Shown piece after piece: positions 35,454 through 54,560 of a stretch of DNA of 64,000 bases. Position 1 is the stretch's first letter. Each line of letters starts with the position of its first letter. Position numbers and translations under genes: made by a program. The DNA is from an uncultured Pelagibacteraceae bacterium (GTDB lineage Bacteria; Pseudomonadota; Alphaproteobacteria; Pelagibacterales; Pelagibacteraceae): the NCBI GenBank assembly GCA_902554035.1, contig CACDMX010000005.1, positions 1 to 64,000 of the forward strand, in the 5' to 3' direction. Under the pieces are notes generated by a model. It saw nothing but the letters and a program-made list of their open reading frames with translations. It was not told where the DNA came from and made no database searches.

Positions 35454-36210
35454 TTCACATTGTCATCTAGATCACGATCCACTTTATAAAAATTTAGACA
35501 ATATAATTTTAAATTCTAAGAAAGTAGGTGTAGAGAAACTACTAACAATATGTACAACAAACGAAAGTTTTAAAAATATATTAAAAATAATTAAAAAAGA
35601 CAAAATTATATTTGGAACCTTTGGTATTCACCCTCATGAAGCTAACGGTAATATTTTGAGTGTAGATGAGATAATAAATTCAGTTAAAATTGATAGCAAA
35701 ATAATTGGTGTTGGTGAAACTGGCCTTGATTTCTATTATAATAACAGCGACAAAAAATCCCAAATAAAAAGTTTTATTAATCATATTGATGCTTCGATAG
35801 AATTAAATATGCCTGTCATAGTTCATTCAAGGAATGCAGAAATAGAAACATTTGAAATTTTAAATAAATATAAAAAAAACAAAAATATTAAAATATTAAT
35901 GCATTGTTTTACAGGTTCAAAAAATTTTTCAAAAAAACTTTTAGAATTAAATACTTTTTTTTCAGCGAGTGGTATTATTACATTCAAAAATAGCGTGGAT
36001 CTACAATCTACGTTTAAAGAAATACCTTTTGAAAAATTATTAATTGAAACTGATAGCCCTTTTTTGGCGCCTGTTCCAATGAGAGGAAAAAAAAATGAAC
36101 CATCATTTATAAAATACACATTAGAGAAATTGTCAGAAATTAAAAGTATTGATGTTAAAACGTTAGACAAAATAACAACTGATAATTTTAATAAATTGTT
36201 TTTTAATTAA
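35446..36210 (+). CDS. tatD: TatD-family metal-dependent DNase
   Basis: A 254-residue amidohydrolase-fold protein with DSHCHLDHD (metal His residues), FGIHPHEA, VGETGLDFYY, HSRNAE, MHCFTGS and IETDSPFLAP. TatD enzymes are 3'-5' exonucleases linked to DNA fragmentation and repair; the name is historical and there is no export role. It follows metG and its stop overlaps the next start by one base (TAATG). Confidence 0.93.
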   Translation: MIDSHCHLDHDPLYKNLDNIILNSKKVGVEKLLTICTTNESFKNILKIIKKDKIIFGTFGIHPHEANGNILSVDEIINSVKIDSKIIGVGETGLDFYYNNSDKKSQIKSFINHIDASIELNMPVIVHSRNAEIETFEILNKYKKNKNIKILMHCFTGSKNFSKKLLELNTFFSASGIITFKNSVDLQSTFKEIPFEKLLIETDSPFLAPVPMRGKKNEPSFIKYTLEKLSEIKSIDVKTLDKITTDNFNKLFFN

Positions 36211-47204: not shown

Positions 47205-49337
47205 ATGAATAAAAAAATTTTTATCATTCTGCCCCATAAGGATCAATTTATAAAAAATTATGCTGGATCTGCATCAATATGGGTTAAGGATTTTTTTAAA
47301 AAAACAAAGTTTAAAAATAAAATTAAAATATTTGGATCTACCGATAAATTAAAAAATGTTTTTATAAAGAAAAATTATTCAAATATTAAAATTCCAAATA
47401 TTAAGATATTAAGTAAATCAGATTTTTATACAAAAAAGCTAATTATTCAATGTGTTAAACAAAAACCTTCAGTTGTTGAAATTCATAATAGGCCATCTTA
47501 CCTATTGACGATAGCAAAAAGATTTTCAAAAACTAATTTTATATTAGTAATACATAACGACCCACAAAATCTTAGAGGCTCAAATACTGTAGAGGAAAGA
47601 AAACATCTTCTTAAATTGTGTTATAAAATTTATTTTGTAAGCTCTTGGGTTGAGGAAAAGTTTTTTTCTGGTATTGATAAAAACTTTTATACTAATTTTC
47701 ATACTATTTATCCAAGTATTGATAAAATTAATAAACTTCCCTCAAAAAAAAAGATTATAATTTTTTCAGGCAAACTCAATGCAGCTAAAGGTTTTGATAA
47801 ATTTGCTAAAGCTATTATTAAAATTTTAAATAAATATAAAGATTGGAAATCTGTAATAATTGGAGACGAACCAAGAGAAAAATATTTTTTTAATCATAAA
47901 AGGTTAATTTTTACAGGATGGATACCGCAGGATAAAGTTCTAAATCTATATAATGATTCCAGTATAACTGTAGTTCCATCTTTATGGGAAGAGCCTTTTG
48001 GAAGGTCATCCTTAGAGGCGGGATCAAGAGGAAACGCAGTAATTATTTCAAAGAAAGGAGGTCTTCCTGAAACTATAGATAATCCGATTTTTTTAAAAAA
48101 TGTTACATCTTCTTCAATTTATTCTGAACTAAACAAATTAATTAAAAATAAAAAGTTACTAAAACGTTTGCAATTAATCTCATTTAAAAAACCGCTACAT
48201 TTAATAAAAAAAAATATTTTAATAATAGATAAACATAGAAGAAATATCTTAGAGCCCATTAAAAAAATAAATATTAATAAAAACTCAAAATTAAAAATTT
48301 TACATGTTTTTAATCGTGCTGAAAAAATTGGTGGACGTATTTATTTTATCTCCACTGGTAAAAAAATTGAGAATGGACTTATAAGATTAGGACATGATGT
48401 TGAAGGAATAAGTGATAGAGATGTATTAAGCTATAATTCAAAAATAAATGCTAGAAATGTTCTTAATCGTGTTTTTTTAGAAAAGTCATTATATTACAGA
48501 CCTGATATAATATTGTTGGGTCATGTAAATACCATAGATGAAGAGAGTTTTTCTAAAATTAAAAACGTGAGTAAACATACTATTTTTTCTCAATGGTATG
48601 AAGATAATTTAACTTTAAATGGTCCAGATTTTCAAAAAAATTTACTAAATCTCAAAACTAATTTTAAGTATTTAGATAATTTTTTCATATCCACGCATCC
48701 AGACGATGTTAGCAAAAAAATTCCTCGTATAAGATATCACTTTTTGCCTACACCAGTTGATAAAAATATTGAAAAATTAAACATTTACGCTCAAGATGAT
48801 TATACTCATGATGTTTTTTTTGCAATGAGTCATGGAGTAAATAGAGGCATAATTAAATCTGGAAAAAAAGATGAAAGAGAATTATTTGTCAAACAATTAA
48901 TAGACCTTAATAAAGATTTAAAATTTGATATTTACGGCTACAATGATAGAAATCCTGTTTGGTCAGAGAGTTTTTATTCAGCAATATCGAGATCTTCTAT
49001 GGCAGTCAATTTAAATAGGGGCAAACCAAAAAAGTACTCATCAAGTAACAGAATTGGATCACTAATCGGTAATGGACTATTGACATTTATAGATTACAAA
49101 AAAAAGTTTAATCATTTCTTTAAAGATAATGAGATAATTTTTTATCATAATAAAAATGATTTATCTGAAAAACTTAAGTTTTATAAACAAAATTCAAAAC
49201 AAAGAAAAATTATTGCAAAAAATGGTCAAAGTAAATATTTTAAATTATTTAATGAAATTGAAGTCGCAAAATATATTGTTGAGGAATCATTGGGAACAAA
49301 TAATTATAAGCCAAAATGGTTTGATTATCTAAGGTAG
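47205..49337 (+). CDS. Two-domain glycosyltransferase (GT4-like plus CgeB-like)
   Basis: A 710-residue protein holding two glycosyltransferase units. Residues about 1-340 are GT4-like: IIFSGKLNAAKGFDKFAKAI, GWIPQDKVLNLY and VPSLWEEPFGRSSLEAGSRG (acceptor/donor EX7E region). Residues about 360-710 start a new fold with LKILHVFNRAEKIGGRIYF and end with RIGSLIGNGLLTF and a CgeB/Glyco_trans_1_2-like C terminus. Such fusions add two sugars in sequence. No membrane helix is present, so it works on the cytoplasmic face. The largest gene of the island. Confidence 0.82.
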   Translation: MNKKIFIILPHKDQFIKNYAGSASIWVKDFFKKTKFKNKIKIFGSTDKLKNVFIKKNYSNIKIPNIKILSKSDFYTKKLIIQCVKQKPSVVEIHNRPSYLLTIAKRFSKTNFILVIHNDPQNLRGSNTVEERKHLLKLCYKIYFVSSWVEEKFFSGIDKNFYTNFHTIYPSIDKINKLPSKKKIIIFSGKLNAAKGFDKFAKAIIKILNKYKDWKSVIIGDEPREKYFFNHKRLIFTGWIPQDKVLNLYNDSSITVVPSLWEEPFGRSSLEAGSRGNAVIISKKGGLPETIDNPIFLKNVTSSSIYSELNKLIKNKKLLKRLQLISFKKPLHLIKKNILIIDKHRRNILEPIKKININKNSKLKILHVFNRAEKIGGRIYFISTGKKIENGLIRLGHDVEGISDRDVLSYNSKINARNVLNRVFLEKSLYYRPDIILLGHVNTIDEESFSKIKNVSKHTIFSQWYEDNLTLNGPDFQKNLLNLKTNFKYLDNFFISTHPDDVSKKIPRIRYHFLPTPVDKNIEKLNIYAQDDYTHDVFFAMSHGVNRGIIKSGKKDERELFVKQLIDLNKDLKFDIYGYNDRNPVWSESFYSAISRSSMAVNLNRGKPKKYSSSNRIGSLIGNGLLTFIDYKKKFNHFFKDNEIIFYHNKNDLSEKLKFYKQNSKQRKIIAKNGQSKYFKLFNEIEVAKYIVEESLGTNNYKPKWFDYLR

Positions 49338-49338
49338 C

Positions 49339-50430
49339 ATGAAATTTTTAAATATTCATAAACAAGATAAAAAAATATTCAAAAATTTAATAAATGATTT
49401 TAAAAAAAATATTAACAAAGGTGATTTCATATTAGGAAAGTCTGTTGAAACTTTTGAAAGAGAATTTGCTAGTTATTGTGGCTCTAAATATGCAATAGGT
49501 TGTGGCAATGGTACAGATGCACTAACTATTGCTCTAAAAGCTTTGAATCTTCCTAATAAATCGGAAGTTATTATTCCTGCTATGACATACTGCTCAACAG
49601 CATTTGCTGTTATTAATGCAAATTTAAAACCTGTTCTTGCTGATATTGATTTTATGACACCGACAATTTCTTTAAATCAAATAAAAAAAAAAATAAATCC
49701 TAGAACAAAAGTTATAATTCCTGTACATCTATATGGCTCATCAGCCAATATAAATGGTATAAAGAAAATAATTAATAAAAAAAAAATTAAGGTTATTGAT
49801 GACTGTGCTCAAGCTCATGGCGCTTATGATGACTCAATCAAAAATAAAAAAAGAATAGGATCTACTAGTGATATCTCTTGTTTTAGTTTTTATCCAGGTA
49901 AAAATTTAGGTGCGTATGGAGATGCGGGTATAATAACAACTAATAGTAAAATTTATAACAAAATTATTCGCAAAATGAGAAATTTAGGATCTGAAAAAAA
50001 ATTTATTCATGAATATATTGGTTTAAATAGTAGACTTGATACTCTGCAAGCTTCAATCTTAACTAAAAAACTCAATTTTTTAGACAAAAATAATTTAAAA
50101 AGAAAAAATATTGCTTATTTTTATGACAAACAAATTAATAGTTCCAAAATTGAAAAATTGAAATATTCTAATACTTGCGTATACCATCAATATGTAATTT
50201 TAACAAAATATAGAAAAAAACTTATTAATTTGTTTAAAAAGAAAAAAATTCCCTTTGGCTTTCATTACCCATATGCCTTAAATCAAATACATGCTTTGAG
50301 AAAATTTTTTAAAAATCAAAAATACCCTAACGCTGAAAAAATTGCTTCACAAGGTATTAGTCTTCCAATAGATCCTAATTTAAGAAATAAGGATTTAAGA
50401 AAAGTAGTTAAAGTAATCAATTCTTTTTGA
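49339..50430 (+). CDS. DegT/DnrJ/EryC1/StrS-type sugar aminotransferase
   Basis: A 363-residue PLP enzyme of the sugar aminotransferase group. The N-terminal substrate loop is GDFILGKSVETFEREFASYCG, the cofactor region GCGNGTDALTIALKAL, and the Lys that binds PLP is in SFYPGKNLGAYGDAG. It aminates a keto sugar nucleotide, plausibly the product of the Gfo/Idh/MocA enzyme upstream. Its start lies one base after the preceding stop, in the same run of plus-strand genes. Confidence 0.92.
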   Translation: MKFLNIHKQDKKIFKNLINDFKKNINKGDFILGKSVETFEREFASYCGSKYAIGCGNGTDALTIALKALNLPNKSEVIIPAMTYCSTAFAVINANLKPVLADIDFMTPTISLNQIKKKINPRTKVIIPVHLYGSSANINGIKKIINKKKIKVIDDCAQAHGAYDDSIKNKKRIGSTSDISCFSFYPGKNLGAYGDAGIITTNSKIYNKIIRKMRNLGSEKKFIHEYIGLNSRLDTLQASILTKKLNFLDKNNLKRKNIAYFYDKQINSSKIEKLKYSNTCVYHQYVILTKYRKKLINLFKKKKIPFGFHYPYALNQIHALRKFFKNQKYPNAEKIASQGISLPIDPNLRNKDLRKVVKVINSF

Positions 50431-50439
50431 AAAAAAATT

Positions 50440-51474
50440 TTGAAAAAAAATATTTTAATTTTTAAAAATGACGCTGTTGGTGATTTAGTGCAAAGTCTTG
50501 ATGCAATAAACAATATTGTTATCAATAATAAAGGACACAATATTATTATTTATTTATCAGAAAGAAGTAAAAATTTTGATTTTTTGTTTGACCGTCAAAA
50601 AATAAAAATTTTAAATATAAATTACGATTTATCTTTACTAGAAAAATTTAAGATTATATATCAACTATTAATAACTAATACTAAAGCTGTATATATTTTA
50701 ACACCAAAAAACTTTTATTTTTATTTACCTCTAATCTTTAAAAATATCAAATTTTATGCTTTATGTGTAAATTCAATTAACAATTATAAGAGACCCGGAA
50801 ACTTTTTCAGAAAGTATTTACATAAATTTGTAGTTAATGAGAGAGACAAAATAACAAAAAGAGAATCTACCATGGAAATACAAAGACAATTAACAAGAGA
50901 AAATAAATCTGATGAGAGATATAAAATAGGATTAATACCTAAGTTTAACTATGATAATTTTATAAATGTAAAAAACTATATTTACTTTCATCTAAAAATA
51001 TCAAATTTTAATAAACTAGGGTGGGGCATAACTGAACTGAAAATGATATTTGAAGAATTTTTAAAATATAAAAAAAAAGTAATCTTCACAAGAGACATAG
51101 AGAAATTAGATGCTGAAAATGATTATAAAAGTATTTTTAATGTAGTTGATTTCAATACAAAGGATAAAATACTTAATAATACAAATATATACCTTTATGA
51201 TAATATTAAAGGTAGCGATCTTTATAATGTAATAAGAAATGCAGATAAAGTAGTTTCATTTCATGGTATGATGACTAACTTAGCTTCAATAGAAAAAAAA
51301 CCCGTCTTAGATTTATTTTACTGCAATATAAAAACACTTGAAGATTTTAGAAGATATAAAAATGCTTTGTATGAATTTAAGCCAAATTATAAGAATTATG
51401 ATTTTATAGTACCAAGTAAAAATATAAAAAAAACAATTAATAAAATGCAATTCTTTCTCAAAAAAGACTTATGA
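50440..51474 (+). CDS. Glycosyltransferase, GT9 (heptosyltransferase)-like
   Basis: A 344-residue protein starting with a TTG codon: KKNILIFKNDAVGDLVQSLDAI is the GT9-type N terminus (ILIxKxxxxGDxV). The second half has VVSFHGMMTNLASIEKKPVLDLF, the donor-binding segment that corresponds to DSGLxH in heptosyltransferases but with FHGMM in place of it. It likely adds a sugar to the lipopolysaccharide core. No ATG lies upstream in frame that would keep the conserved start. It overlaps the next gene by four bases. Confidence 0.75.
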   Translation: MKKNILIFKNDAVGDLVQSLDAINNIVINNKGHNIIIYLSERSKNFDFLFDRQKIKILNINYDLSLLEKFKIIYQLLITNTKAVYILTPKNFYFYLPLIFKNIKFYALCVNSINNYKRPGNFFRKYLHKFVVNERDKITKRESTMEIQRQLTRENKSDERYKIGLIPKFNYDNFINVKNYIYFHLKISNFNKLGWGITELKMIFEEFLKYKKKVIFTRDIEKLDAENDYKSIFNVVDFNTKDKILNNTNIYLYDNIKGSDLYNVIRNADKVVSFHGMMTNLASIEKKPVLDLFYCNIKTLEDFRRYKNALYEFKPNYKNYDFIVPSKNIKKTINKMQFFLKKDL

Positions 51475-52412
51475 AAAAAAAAATAATTGTACGAATTTCC
51501 AATGAAATAGGGAATCAGTTATTTATGTATGCTTCAAGCTATGCAATTTCAAAAAAGCTTAATAGGTTACTTTACCTGGATAATGAAACAGCTTTTACAT
51601 CGAGAAAAAATATCAGTGCCTATGGCTTAAATAATTTTATGATTAGCGGTATAATCGCTGGTAAAAAAGATAAATTCTTAGGCGTTATAGGCTATTTAAA
51701 AAGAAAAATATTAAAAAAAATTAATTTAATTCTTAGTAAAAAAATTTTTTATGAAGAACCTAAAAATAAAAAAAAAATAACAAAATATTCAGATCAAATT
51801 TTTAAGATGAATTTTTCGAACAATCTATATATAGAAGGATATTTTGAGACCGAAAAGTATTTTGATGATTTTAGGGAAAATATTTTAAAAGAATTCTCTT
51901 TTTTGGATGTTGATAAATATATTAAATCACCTTTTTATAACTATCTTAATAAAAAAAATTCAGTATCTATATGTTTACGACAAAATAGATATATTGAAGG
52001 AAAAAATAAAAATAATAAAGTGAATCAAGAAAAATCAGATAATTTTAAATTAGAACAAATTAAATTTATTAACAAATCAATTAAATATATTGAGAATAAT
52101 GTACCTAAACCAAAATTTTATCTATGGTCAAACGATTTTGATAATATTGATATGTCATTGTTTTGTTCTGGTGTGACAAAAATAAAACACAGTGGTGATA
52201 TTTTAAGTGGTATCGATAAAAGATCACTTGATTTATTTCTTATTTCTCAATGTAATCATCATATTGTAATACCATCGTCTTTTAATTGGTGGGGAGCATG
52301 GCTGTCACAAAAAAAAAACAAAATTATATGTAGACCTAATGATGATTTTTTTACTGATTTTAAAGTAAATAATCTAGATTTTTGGCCACCTAGTTGGAAG
52401 GAAATATCATGA
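51471..52412 (+). CDS. Alpha-1,2-fucosyltransferase-like glycosyltransferase (GT11)
   Basis: A 313-residue protein with the GT11 layout: IIVRISNEIGNQLFMYASSYAISKKL at the start, an intermediate EGYFETEKYFDDFRENIL, and SSFNWWGAWLSQKKNKII near the end. The HxRxxD donor motif is changed to SICLRQNRYIEG: Arg is kept, His and Asp are not. It would add fucose or a related deoxy sugar to a surface glycan if active. It overlaps the following methyltransferase by 19 bases. Confidence 0.85.
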   Translation: MKKKIIVRISNEIGNQLFMYASSYAISKKLNRLLYLDNETAFTSRKNISAYGLNNFMISGIIAGKKDKFLGVIGYLKRKILKKINLILSKKIFYEEPKNKKKITKYSDQIFKMNFSNNLYIEGYFETEKYFDDFRENILKEFSFLDVDKYIKSPFYNYLNKKNSVSICLRQNRYIEGKNKNNKVNQEKSDNFKLEQIKFINKSIKYIENNVPKPKFYLWSNDFDNIDMSLFCSGVTKIKHSGDILSGIDKRSLDLFLISQCNHHIVIPSSFNWWGAWLSQKKNKIICRPNDDFFTDFKVNNLDFWPPSWKEIS

Positions 52413-53092
52413 GTTTGATTGAAATAGGAAAAAAATATCCATCTAGCAAAAATATTTCAGGTTTTATTCAATTATATGAAAAATATTTTTCCTCTTTAAG
52501 AGACTCAAAAATAAATATTTTAGAAATAGGAATAGAAAATGGTGATAGTTTGCGTATTTGGCGTGAGTATTTCTCTAAAGCAAATATTTGCGGCGTTGAT
52601 ATCGATAAAAAAAATTTTAAAATAGACAATGTTGATATTCAACATGGAGACCAATCAAATAATGTTTTCTTATTATCTCTAATTAATATTTATAAAAATT
52701 TCGATATTATTATTGATGATGGAAGTCATCAAGCAAAACACATAATTTCTTCTTTCAATTTTCTATTTCCTTATTTAAATGATAACGGTATTTATATAAT
52801 CGAAGATCTTCAGACATCTTACTTTCCGAGATATGGTGGCTCAAGAATTAATCTTAATAAAAAACAATCTTCTATGAATTTTGTTAAATCTTTAGCTGAC
52901 TCAATCAATTATGAAAAAAACAATCGTCCTTTTTTTAAAAAAAATAAATTTGATGGATTAATTAAATCTATTCATTTTCATCAAAATATAGCTTTTATTT
53001 ATAAAGGACAAAGTATAAAATATTTTTATAATCAAGATTTTAAAGAAACTTTATCAGATAAAATAAAAAAATTTTTATCTTATTTTTTTTAA
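52394..53092 (+). CDS. SAM-dependent methyltransferase (CmcI-like, class I)
   Basis: A 232-residue class I methyltransferase. Motif I is ILEIGIENGDSLRIWREYF, with GVDIDKK for the adenosine-binding acid; FDIIIDDGSHQAKHIISSF gives the metal-binding Asp pair and NGIYIIEDLQTSYFP the later motif. The closest resemblance is to CmcI and to sugar O-methyltransferases of deoxysugar pathways. In the island it most likely methylates a glycan residue. It ends four bases into the recombinase gene on the other strand. Confidence 0.85.
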   Translation: MEGNIMSLIEIGKKYPSSKNISGFIQLYEKYFSSLRDSKINILEIGIENGDSLRIWREYFSKANICGVDIDKKNFKIDNVDIQHGDQSNNVFLLSLINIYKNFDIIIDDGSHQAKHIISSFNFLFPYLNDNGIYIIEDLQTSYFPRYGGSRINLNKKQSSMNFVKSLADSINYEKNNRPFFKKNKFDGLIKSIHFHQNIAFIYKGQSIKYFYNQDFKETLSDKIKKFLSYFF

Positions 53093-54042
53093 AATTTTAT
53101 TTTATTTAAAGCGTTATTTTTAAATATATTTGCTTCTCTAATATATCTTCTGACCATTTGTGTTGTTTTATGACCTGTCATTGCCATAATGCTTCTTTCA
53201 TCTGCCCCTGACTCAGCAGCTACTGTTGCAAAACCTGATCTTAAACTATGACCTGAAAAATTTTTATTTTCAATTCCCGCTAAATTCAAATATTCTTTAA
53301 TTAACAAAACTACTGATTGATCTGTTAATCTATTCTCAGTCAAAGTTGACCCTTTTGTAAATCTTCTAAAAATTGGCCCAGATTTTATTTTAGATAGTTC
53401 TAGCCATTTTTGTAAATTTACTACCGGACAATAAATTTCATTATTAAAGTAGGGCAGTCCTTTTATCATGCCTTCGCCGAATTGATCTGTTTTGGATCTT
53501 TTAATAATGATTTTAAGGCCTTCAGGAACAAACTCTATGTCTTCATGATCAATTAAAACAAGTTCTGTTCGTCTAAATCCCCCTCCAAAGCCAACTAAAA
53601 TTATAGTTTTATCCCTTTGTTTTTTAATTTCATCAATTTTTTGTTCATTAATCACATTAATTATTGATTTTAAATGATTGATTAATATAGGTTTTTTTCC
53701 TTTTTGAATACTGCCTTTTACTCTCTTTATGCCCATCAGATTTTCAATAATGATTGGATGTTTTGTATCTAAATAATGACCTTTTAATTTGTGAACCATA
53801 CTTATTGAAACTAATCTTCTTCTTAAAGTGCTAATTTTTGAATTTTTAGAAAGATGGGTTAGGTATAAAGAAACTGTTTTAGGTTCTGATGGCAATGAAT
53901 TTAGTCCATGCTTTGCACAAAAAGTCCCGAAGTCCTTAAAATCAGATTTATAGGCCCTTAAAGTGTTATTAGCTTTAGATGACTTCAGGTTATTTAAAGT
54001 TGCCTCATGAAGCGATTTTAAGTCTGTTGTTAACTCATTCAT
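53089..54042 (-). CDS. Tyrosine recombinase/integrase
   Basis: A 317-residue tyrosine recombinase. The N-terminal SAM-like core-binding domain spans about residues 8-110 (NNTLRAYKSDFKDFGTFCAKHG). The catalytic residues are Arg157 in GGFRRTELVLI, Lys184 in KRSKTDQ, His265 and Arg268 in SGHSLRSGFA, His291 in MTGHKTT and the nucleophile Tyr300 in MVRRYIREAN. All six are intact. It lies at the right edge of the surface island. Its ATG abuts a perfect inverted repeat with no Shine-Dalgarno. It is not a typical XerC/D, which are shorter at the N terminus. Confidence 0.92.
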   Translation of the reverse strand: MNELTTDLKSLHEATLNNLKSSKANNTLRAYKSDFKDFGTFCAKHGLNSLPSEPKTVSLYLTHLSKNSKISTLRRRLVSISMVHKLKGHYLDTKHPIIIENLMGIKRVKGSIQKGKKPILINHLKSIINVINEQKIDEIKKQRDKTIILVGFGGGFRRTELVLIDHEDIEFVPEGLKIIIKRSKTDQFGEGMIKGLPYFNNEIYCPVVNLQKWLELSKIKSGPIFRRFTKGSTLTENRLTDQSVVLLIKEYLNLAGIENKNFSGHSLRSGFATVAAESGADERSIMAMTGHKTTQMVRRYIREANIFKNNALNKIKF

Positions 54043-54083
54043 ATTATTACTATTGATAACAATTAATTATCAATAGTAATAAT
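54043..54083. repeat. 17-bp inverted repeat with 7-bp spacer beside the recombinase
   Basis: The arm ATTATTACTATTGATAA (54043-54059) and its exact reverse complement (54067-54083) flank the 7-base spacer CAATTAA. The left arm begins at the base next to the recombinase start codon. Long arms around an asymmetric 6-8 bp spacer are the form of tyrosine-recombinase core sites such as loxP and FRT, so this may be the binding and crossover site. It may equally be an operator, or a hairpin in the recombinase messenger that limits translation. Confidence 0.85.
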
Positions 54084-54127
54084 ATAACTCATTTAATAAG
54101 TCAAGCAAATAAGTTAAAGGAAATTAG

Positions 54128-54292: not shown

Positions 54293-54379
54293 AAGTTATT
54301 AACATAATTCACATACCATCTGAAAAAACACTTAAAAAGTGATATATACAACTAAATCATTTTGATAATGTTTAATTAA

Positions 54380-54560
54380 TTAAGGGGCAACCCTTAACTG
54401 GCCGATTGGGGAAAAACCGAGAGGTTCAAGCCCAGGGGGCAGAAAGTCTTGCGGAGTAGCGCTAAAATCGTAAGGCGGAAGGCATGGCGGTAGCGCATAC
54501 AACGACGTGCCAAAACTACTGTTCTTTGTGCCCTAAAAAGCACAAGGAAACAGGGTTTCT
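54380..54560 (+). ncRNA. G+C-rich structured RNA of unknown class
   Basis: By hand count 73 of the 130 bases at 54381-54510 are G or C (56%), against roughly 27% around it. Predicted hairpins: TTAAGGG-GCAA-CCCTTAA (54380-54397, GNRA loop); GCC-TTGGG-AACC-GAGA-GGTT-CCCAG-GGC (54401-54440, GNRA loop, internal loops GAAA/CAAG); CTTGCG/CGTAAG (54448-54453 with 54469-54474); and a stem of CTGTT plus CTTTGTGC with GCACAAGG plus AACAG (54519-54553). GCGCTA (54459-54464) in the third loop can pair with TAGCGC (54491-54496), a pseudoknot. Strand is assumed plus. It lies just before the MGMT gene and could be its leader or a separate RNA. I could not match it to tmRNA, RNase P, SRP or 6S RNA. Confidence 0.7.

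Follow-up and report, generated by a model that had tools for sequence, protein, structure and literature searches.

The window (the whole 64,000-nucleotide stretch of DNA analysed here, from an uncultured Pelagibacteraceae bacterium) carries a tyrosine recombinase gene whose start codon is overlapped by a perfect inverted repeat with 19-bp arms and a 7-bp asymmetric spacer (Table 1). Read along the coding strand of the recombinase, the repeat is ATATTATTACTATTGATAA TTAATTG TTATCAATAGTAATAATAT and ends with the first two bases (AT) of the start codon. No other close inverted repeat in the window is as long, and third-order Markov simulations of the window sequence (30 runs) gave arms of at most 15. 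An initial annotation had described a perfect inverted repeat with the asymmetric spacer CAATTAA next to an intact tyrosine recombinase, and both descriptions were confirmed: the open reading frame is whole and the residues R157, K184, H265, R268, H291 and Y300 are invariant. The arms are exact reverse complements as described, but their length is 19 rather than 17 bp; similarly, the arm reported to lie beside the ATG does adjoin the start codon and in fact takes in its AT. The neighbourhood has several other features. A small hydrophobic open reading frame (54 aa) is divergent from the recombinase gene, and the 85-bp gap between them contains the site. An IMES-2 RNA (RF02035, ∼160 bits) follows in the same divergent orientation a few hundred base pairs from the site; of 13 recombinase loci inspected in the Pelagibacteraceae, 10 also have it (for instance L003, 3714–3854), and it appears to be conserved beside the terminus site discussed below. 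On the 3′ side, the recombinase gene is abutted by an island of sugar-type and glycosyltransferase genes, perhaps a variable terminus region.

Table 1. Coordinates of the features in the window and of similar sites on pelagiphage contigs
Feature	Position	Strand	Remark
Tyrosine recombinase, 317 aa	53089–54042	−	Q242 aligns with E. coli XerD Q221
Full inverted repeat, this strain	54041–54085	.	One arm overlaps two start-codon bases
Left arm, ATATTATTACTATTGATAA	54041–54059		Perfect 19-bp arm
Right arm, TTATCAATAGTAATAATAT	54067–54085		Perfect 19-bp arm
Asymmetric 7-bp spacer TTAATTG, presumed crossover region	54060–54066	−	CAATTAA on the + strand
dif-like core site 11-7-11, ACTATTGATAA TTAATTG TTATCAATAGT	54049–54077	−	Kept in all 158 Pelagibacteraceae upstream regions
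−35 element TTGACT of the putative recombinase promoter	54099–54104	−	
−10-like hexamer TATTAC in the upstream arm	54076–54081	−	17 bp past the −35 element
Small hydrophobic ORF, 54 aa	54128–54292	+	
IMES-2 RNA	54373–54513	+	
Sugar-type/glycosyltransferase gene island	47205–53092		
Pelagiphage sites, single or tandem	L432–L460; L461 35382–35441; L463 ∼35828–35888; L464 3333–3362		Intergenic, by terminase genes

The initial annotation had staked the idea of a recombination site on the repeat being conserved together with the recombinase in relatives. A GATAA-N7-TTATC site was found in all 158 upstream regions of the orthologous recombinase examined in Pelagibacteraceae (genera g1 to g6; some of the 158 loci represent the same genome fetched twice), so that the idea passed. 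The conserved core is YGATAA-TTAAT(T/G)G-TTATCR, in which T(−9), GATAA, spacer bases 1 to 3, TTATC and A(+15) do not vary among these loci; the spacer is TTAATTG in 123, TTAATGG in 31 and another sequence in 4. All 17 arm pairs are kept in only 1 of 82 distinct relatives, the long perfect arms being peculiar to this strain. Judged from these alignments, the conserved unit is a site of about 29 bp (11-7-11) rather than the long perfect arms. The suggestion that further copies be sought was followed by a pattern search of 300 genomes, which returned a single match in 151 and never two; the listed matches adjoin the recombinase gene and, among them, the orientation of the site relative to that gene is constant. 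In the complete genome G012 it is the sole site with at least 11 pairs, and no second copy of comparable symmetry was found there. A single A+T-rich palindrome between genes on each chromosome is what Xer/dif systems are expected to have.

The recombinase gene has a similar distribution. Of 201 Pelagibacter genomes, 142 have an orthologue, always as a single copy (the set includes many incomplete genomes, contig ends truncate a few of the matches, and the gene is split on one G083 contig), and a match was obtained in 96 of 107 Pelagibacteraceae genomes. The 11 genomes without a match fit incomplete assemblies, yet one of them (G327) is 99% complete; G309 (1,308,759 bp) has both gene and site. 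The split gene (G083:C8) is in two oppositely oriented pieces within a single contig and probably reflects a chimera formed during amplification.

Two types of arm were distinguished: TATTACTAnyGATAA...TTATCrnTAGTAATA (type one) and TTCCGATAA...TTATCGGAA (type two). Type-one arms always accompany a recombinase with Q at one residue and a 12-residue insertion, type-two arms a recombinase with K and no insertion. By script, arm type and recombinase subtype agree in 147 cases (131 and 16 distinct) and disagree in none, where 147 counts distinct sequences and not independent changes on the tree; the 13 read by eye concur. Both arm types occur inside each of the genera g1, g2 and g5. The dyad symmetry is kept by two-sided changes (51 cells versus 25.0 ± 3.4 in shuffles; 42 distinct sites), and the paired positions reach 87.9% versus 19–68% for slid versions of the same 42 sites. 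The Q/K residue aligns with Q221 of E. coli XerD (the offset was checked against the printed numbering), for which a contact with dif position 24 has been predicted; the specificity of XerD is set by dif positions 23–24 (PMC2731167). The two arm types differ at the places corresponding to these positions. The 29-bp site and this single residue offer handles for an experimental test.

The location of the site relative to the replication terminus was also analysed. In G012 (1,343,202 bp) the site lies at 617,600 and the cumulative GC-skew maximum at 615,773, 1.8 kb apart; the TA-skew minimum is at 620,846 and the GC-skew minimum, on the origin side, is half a chromosome off at 1,290,840. Skew scans of 400 kb around the site in each of two other genomes gave local GC-skew maxima 0.6 kb (G298; site 674,671, maximum 675,249) and 1.0 kb (G082; site 160,139, maximum 159,092) away, and the GC-skew maximum of the window itself, at 52,648, is 1.4 kb from the site. 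A site near the GC-skew switch, as expected of Xer/dif systems, is found in three complete genomes which, since they belong to one genus, are not independent observations. More broadly, ftsK and the site are separated by ∼45–50% of the chromosome in each of 11 complete genomes, which represent four genera (G414 by rounded length); in G012, ftsK is 17 kb from the GC-skew minimum. The heptamer GAGTAGG points towards the site on both chromosome arms (54:8 in G012; 19:4 and 13:4 in the held-out G298 and G082) and may be considered a candidate SAR11 KOPS only, as its bias is not clearly above the background purine skew. AGTAGGG and GTAGGG likewise point siteward.

The recombinase contains the N-terminal SAM-like/core-binding and catalytic domains only (PF02899 and PF00589). 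As expected of the Xer class, it is a simple tyrosine recombinase with the R-K-H-R-H-Y residues found throughout the lineage, and no other PF00589 protein was found in the genome from which the window comes or in two complete genomes. It does not reach the NCBIfam cut-offs for XerC and XerD (335 and 330 bits; scores of 59 and 72.5) or for XerS (NF003462; 45 bits against 267), and in a phylogenetic tree it stands apart from XerC/XerD with 100/100 support. The best fold match of an AlphaFold2 model (pLDDT 80) is Cre (Z ∼21), followed by XerH (Z 19.4), the likeness to the latter being one of fold only; identity to P1 Cre, a long branch in the tree, is ∼18%. In a sister family of the same order the XerD model typically finds two matches per genome, of ∼320 and ∼255 bits, interpreted as XerD and XerC. 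Among the Pelagibacteraceae it finds none above 87 bits, and the top match is the recombinase adjacent to the site. FtsK-gamma, also expected of a Xer/dif system, was present in 13 of 13 genomes; because the recombinase is distant from XerC/XerD, its activation by FtsK cannot be assumed. The FtsK-gamma match in the genome of the window (G000:C1:8229–8411) includes one TGA, perhaps just the normal ftsK stop. An earlier survey, based on homology to known Xer proteins and dif, listed SAR11 as devoid of dif/Xer and took this as streamlining with loss of a ‘non-vital’ function (PMC2731167). Full-text literature searches, with subscription papers mostly outside their scope, returned no report of a SAR11 dif site.

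The nearest relatives found outside SAR11 are plasmid ‘site-specific integrases’ (45% identity for that of Alicyclobacillus pAACI01), and relatives at 38% identity occur on phage-like contigs; copies are sporadic in other Alphaproteobacteria (18 of ∼380). In the tree, whose sampling is thin beyond viruses and plasmids, the SAR11 sequences form one clade (100/100) among plasmid and phage relatives. Of 79 distinct plasmid/phage relatives, 38 showed palindromic GATAA-N6- or N7-TTATC cores, which with few exceptions lie upstream of the gene, at distances from 25 to ∼1260 nt; spacers of 4, 5, 8, 9 and 10 gave none in the same 79 relatives, and shuffles gave one. A phage-type site on L399, TTCCGATAA-TTGATGG-TTATCGGAA, is one spacer base away from a SAR11 site. 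Plasmid pAACI01 has a single copy of the site, as expected of resolution rather than inversion. It appears most likely from these sequences that the SAR11 recombinase descends from a Cre-like plasmid or phage recombinase which brought its site with it and displaced XerC/XerD. Small viral contigs (L393–L411; 8–22 kb) encode a related recombinase, mostly with GATAA-GTGATGA-TTATC 100–200 nt upstream, and apparently represent a separate recombinase/site family.

Similar sites were also found in phages. The exact 19-bp core of this strain is absent from viral contigs. A shorter core common to both arm types, GATAATTAATKGTTATC, occurs in 29 IMG/VR contigs, ∼11 lineages having SAR11-type arms and no promoter. 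Annotated contigs have genes for terminase, portal and capsid proteins; the portal of one shares 86.5% identity with that of pelagiphage HTVC106P, and others resemble the HTVC010P group. Several contigs have tandem sites of both arm types beside the terminase genes, and cultured HTVC035P, HTVC100P and HTVC106P have degenerate tandem pairs at the same place, with spacers unlike that of the host; such a site is absent from HTVC010P. Neither the phage contigs, which are partial, nor HTVC106P and HTVC010P yielded a tyrosine recombinase, and phages related to HTVC010P have been called lytic since no integrase was found (PMC6811365). The phage copies suggest that these supposedly lytic SAR11 phages use the recombinase of their host. 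Integration at the host site gained no support: with one phage terminase as probe, no lysogen was identified in 399 genomes (one phage contig was found, in G178). For the three cultured phages with degenerate pairs, the unlike spacers make integration at dif doubtful and resolution of phage multimers a better guess.

The position of the site relative to a putative promoter raises the question of regulation. TTGAC is located 38 (±1) nt ahead of the spacer in 158 of 158 loci, and this fixed element, together with the −10-like hexamer in the upstream arm, would place the transcription start within the repeat. We infer a sigma-70-type promoter of the recombinase gene in SAR11. A generic promoter scan did not report the −35/−10 pair, because the −10-like hexamer is devoid of the final T; the argument for the promoter is the spacing, which is fixed across the 158 loci. 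The right half-site mostly begins 15–17 nt ahead of the ATG. Such an arrangement would suit an operator at which the recombinase, or another dimeric regulator, represses its own promoter while the recombination site is elsewhere. We regard this as improbable: an operator needs neither a location at the GC-skew switch, nor an asymmetric spacer, nor promoterless copies in phages, the distance between core and gene varies widely in the plasmid and phage relatives, and G012 offers no other copy of comparable symmetry. Self-repression, one of the functions envisaged initially, is nevertheless plausible as a side effect, but not as the sole function, because the −35 element is at a fixed distance and promoter and site overlap.

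Another explanation is that the repeat is a switch or the att site of a mobile element, where inversion, excision or integration occurs. The plasmid and phage affinities of the recombinase and the similar sites on pelagiphages speak for it. However, the site is present in single copy, in constant orientation to a gene which is a single orthologue throughout one family, no element intervenes between site and promoter in the 158 loci, and the terminase probe revealed no lysogen, so that we hold this explanation to be very unlikely. Inversion or excision, which the initial annotation had suggested looking for, does not agree with a site which never exceeds one per genome and is at the terminus; for these two reasons dimer resolution is preferred. 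Least credible is the translational hairpin by the start codon that had also been suggested: an RNA with both arms would fold strongly (−23.8 kcal/mol, z −7.4), but transcription probably starts within the repeat, the 5′ end then remaining folds no better than shuffles (−3.0 kcal/mol), the arms are imperfect in relatives, and relatives keep the core at varied distances from the gene.

Recognition of the repeat as a recombinase core site, with an asymmetric spacer that would give direction, was the central proposal of the initial annotation; it is well supported by conservation with the recombinase, by covariation of arms and protein and by the presence of the same site in relatives and phages. 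We consider it very probable, on the basis of sequence comparisons, that the repeat serves SAR11 as its dif site, that the sole Xer-type recombinase of SAR11 is the product of the adjacent gene and that the two resolve chromosome dimers at the terminus. We infer the following course of binding and strand exchange. Two recombinase monomers would bind the 11-bp half-sites YGATAA/TTATCR; after a crossover has fused sister chromosomes, FtsK, if the system depends on it, would pump DNA towards the terminus and pair the two copies of the site, and a recombinase tetramer would exchange strands in the 7-bp asymmetric spacer, giving two monomers again. Bound recombinase would probably limit its own synthesis through the overlapping promoter. 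With confidence only a little better than even, we favour a broader scenario: a domesticated Cre-like recombinase of a plasmid or phage, with a site overlapping its own promoter, replaced XerCD/dif in SAR11; two specificity alleles circulate among the genera; and pelagiphages, some of them related to the HTVC010P group, where no integrase is found, have both alleles in tandem so that the recombinase of the host can integrate or resolve the phage genomes. SAR11 rank among Earth's most abundant cells and, if true, a terminus module of one gene and one site would overturn the reported absence of dif/Xer (PMC2731167) and provide an example of XerCD replacement by a mobile-element recombinase.

A close parallel in organization is XerL/dif of the Legionellales, which also has a single recombinase, a terminus site with symmetric arms and a site-mimicking mobile element, in a lineage once believed to be without dif/Xer; XerL was demonstrated experimentally, whereas the SAR11 case comes from sequence, with a 7-bp spacer, other arms and a site located in the putative promoter of the recombinase gene (PMC9765430). 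XerS/difSL of streptococci and XerH/difH of epsilonproteobacteria similarly combine one recombinase with a dif site at or near its gene and at the terminus; XerS differs in sequence family and in size (∼355 versus 317 aa), and difSL has an 11-bp central region (PMC5357621, PMC2731167). With XerCD/dif the SAR11 system shares half-sites of the form ...ATAA / TTAT..., the terminus location and a genomic FtsK-gamma; it has one recombinase, far below the XerC/XerD model cut-offs, instead of two, a pair of near-identical half-sites, and a spacer of 7 instead of 6 bp. The comparison with loxP made in the initial annotation proves apt: Cre of phage P1 is the best match of the model, its site is symmetric with a short asymmetric spacer, and lox is likewise upstream of cre. 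loxP has 13-bp half-sites and an 8-bp spacer, versus 11 and 7 bp in SAR11, where the recombinase is ∼18% identical to Cre and the site is chromosomal, located at the terminus and vertically inherited.
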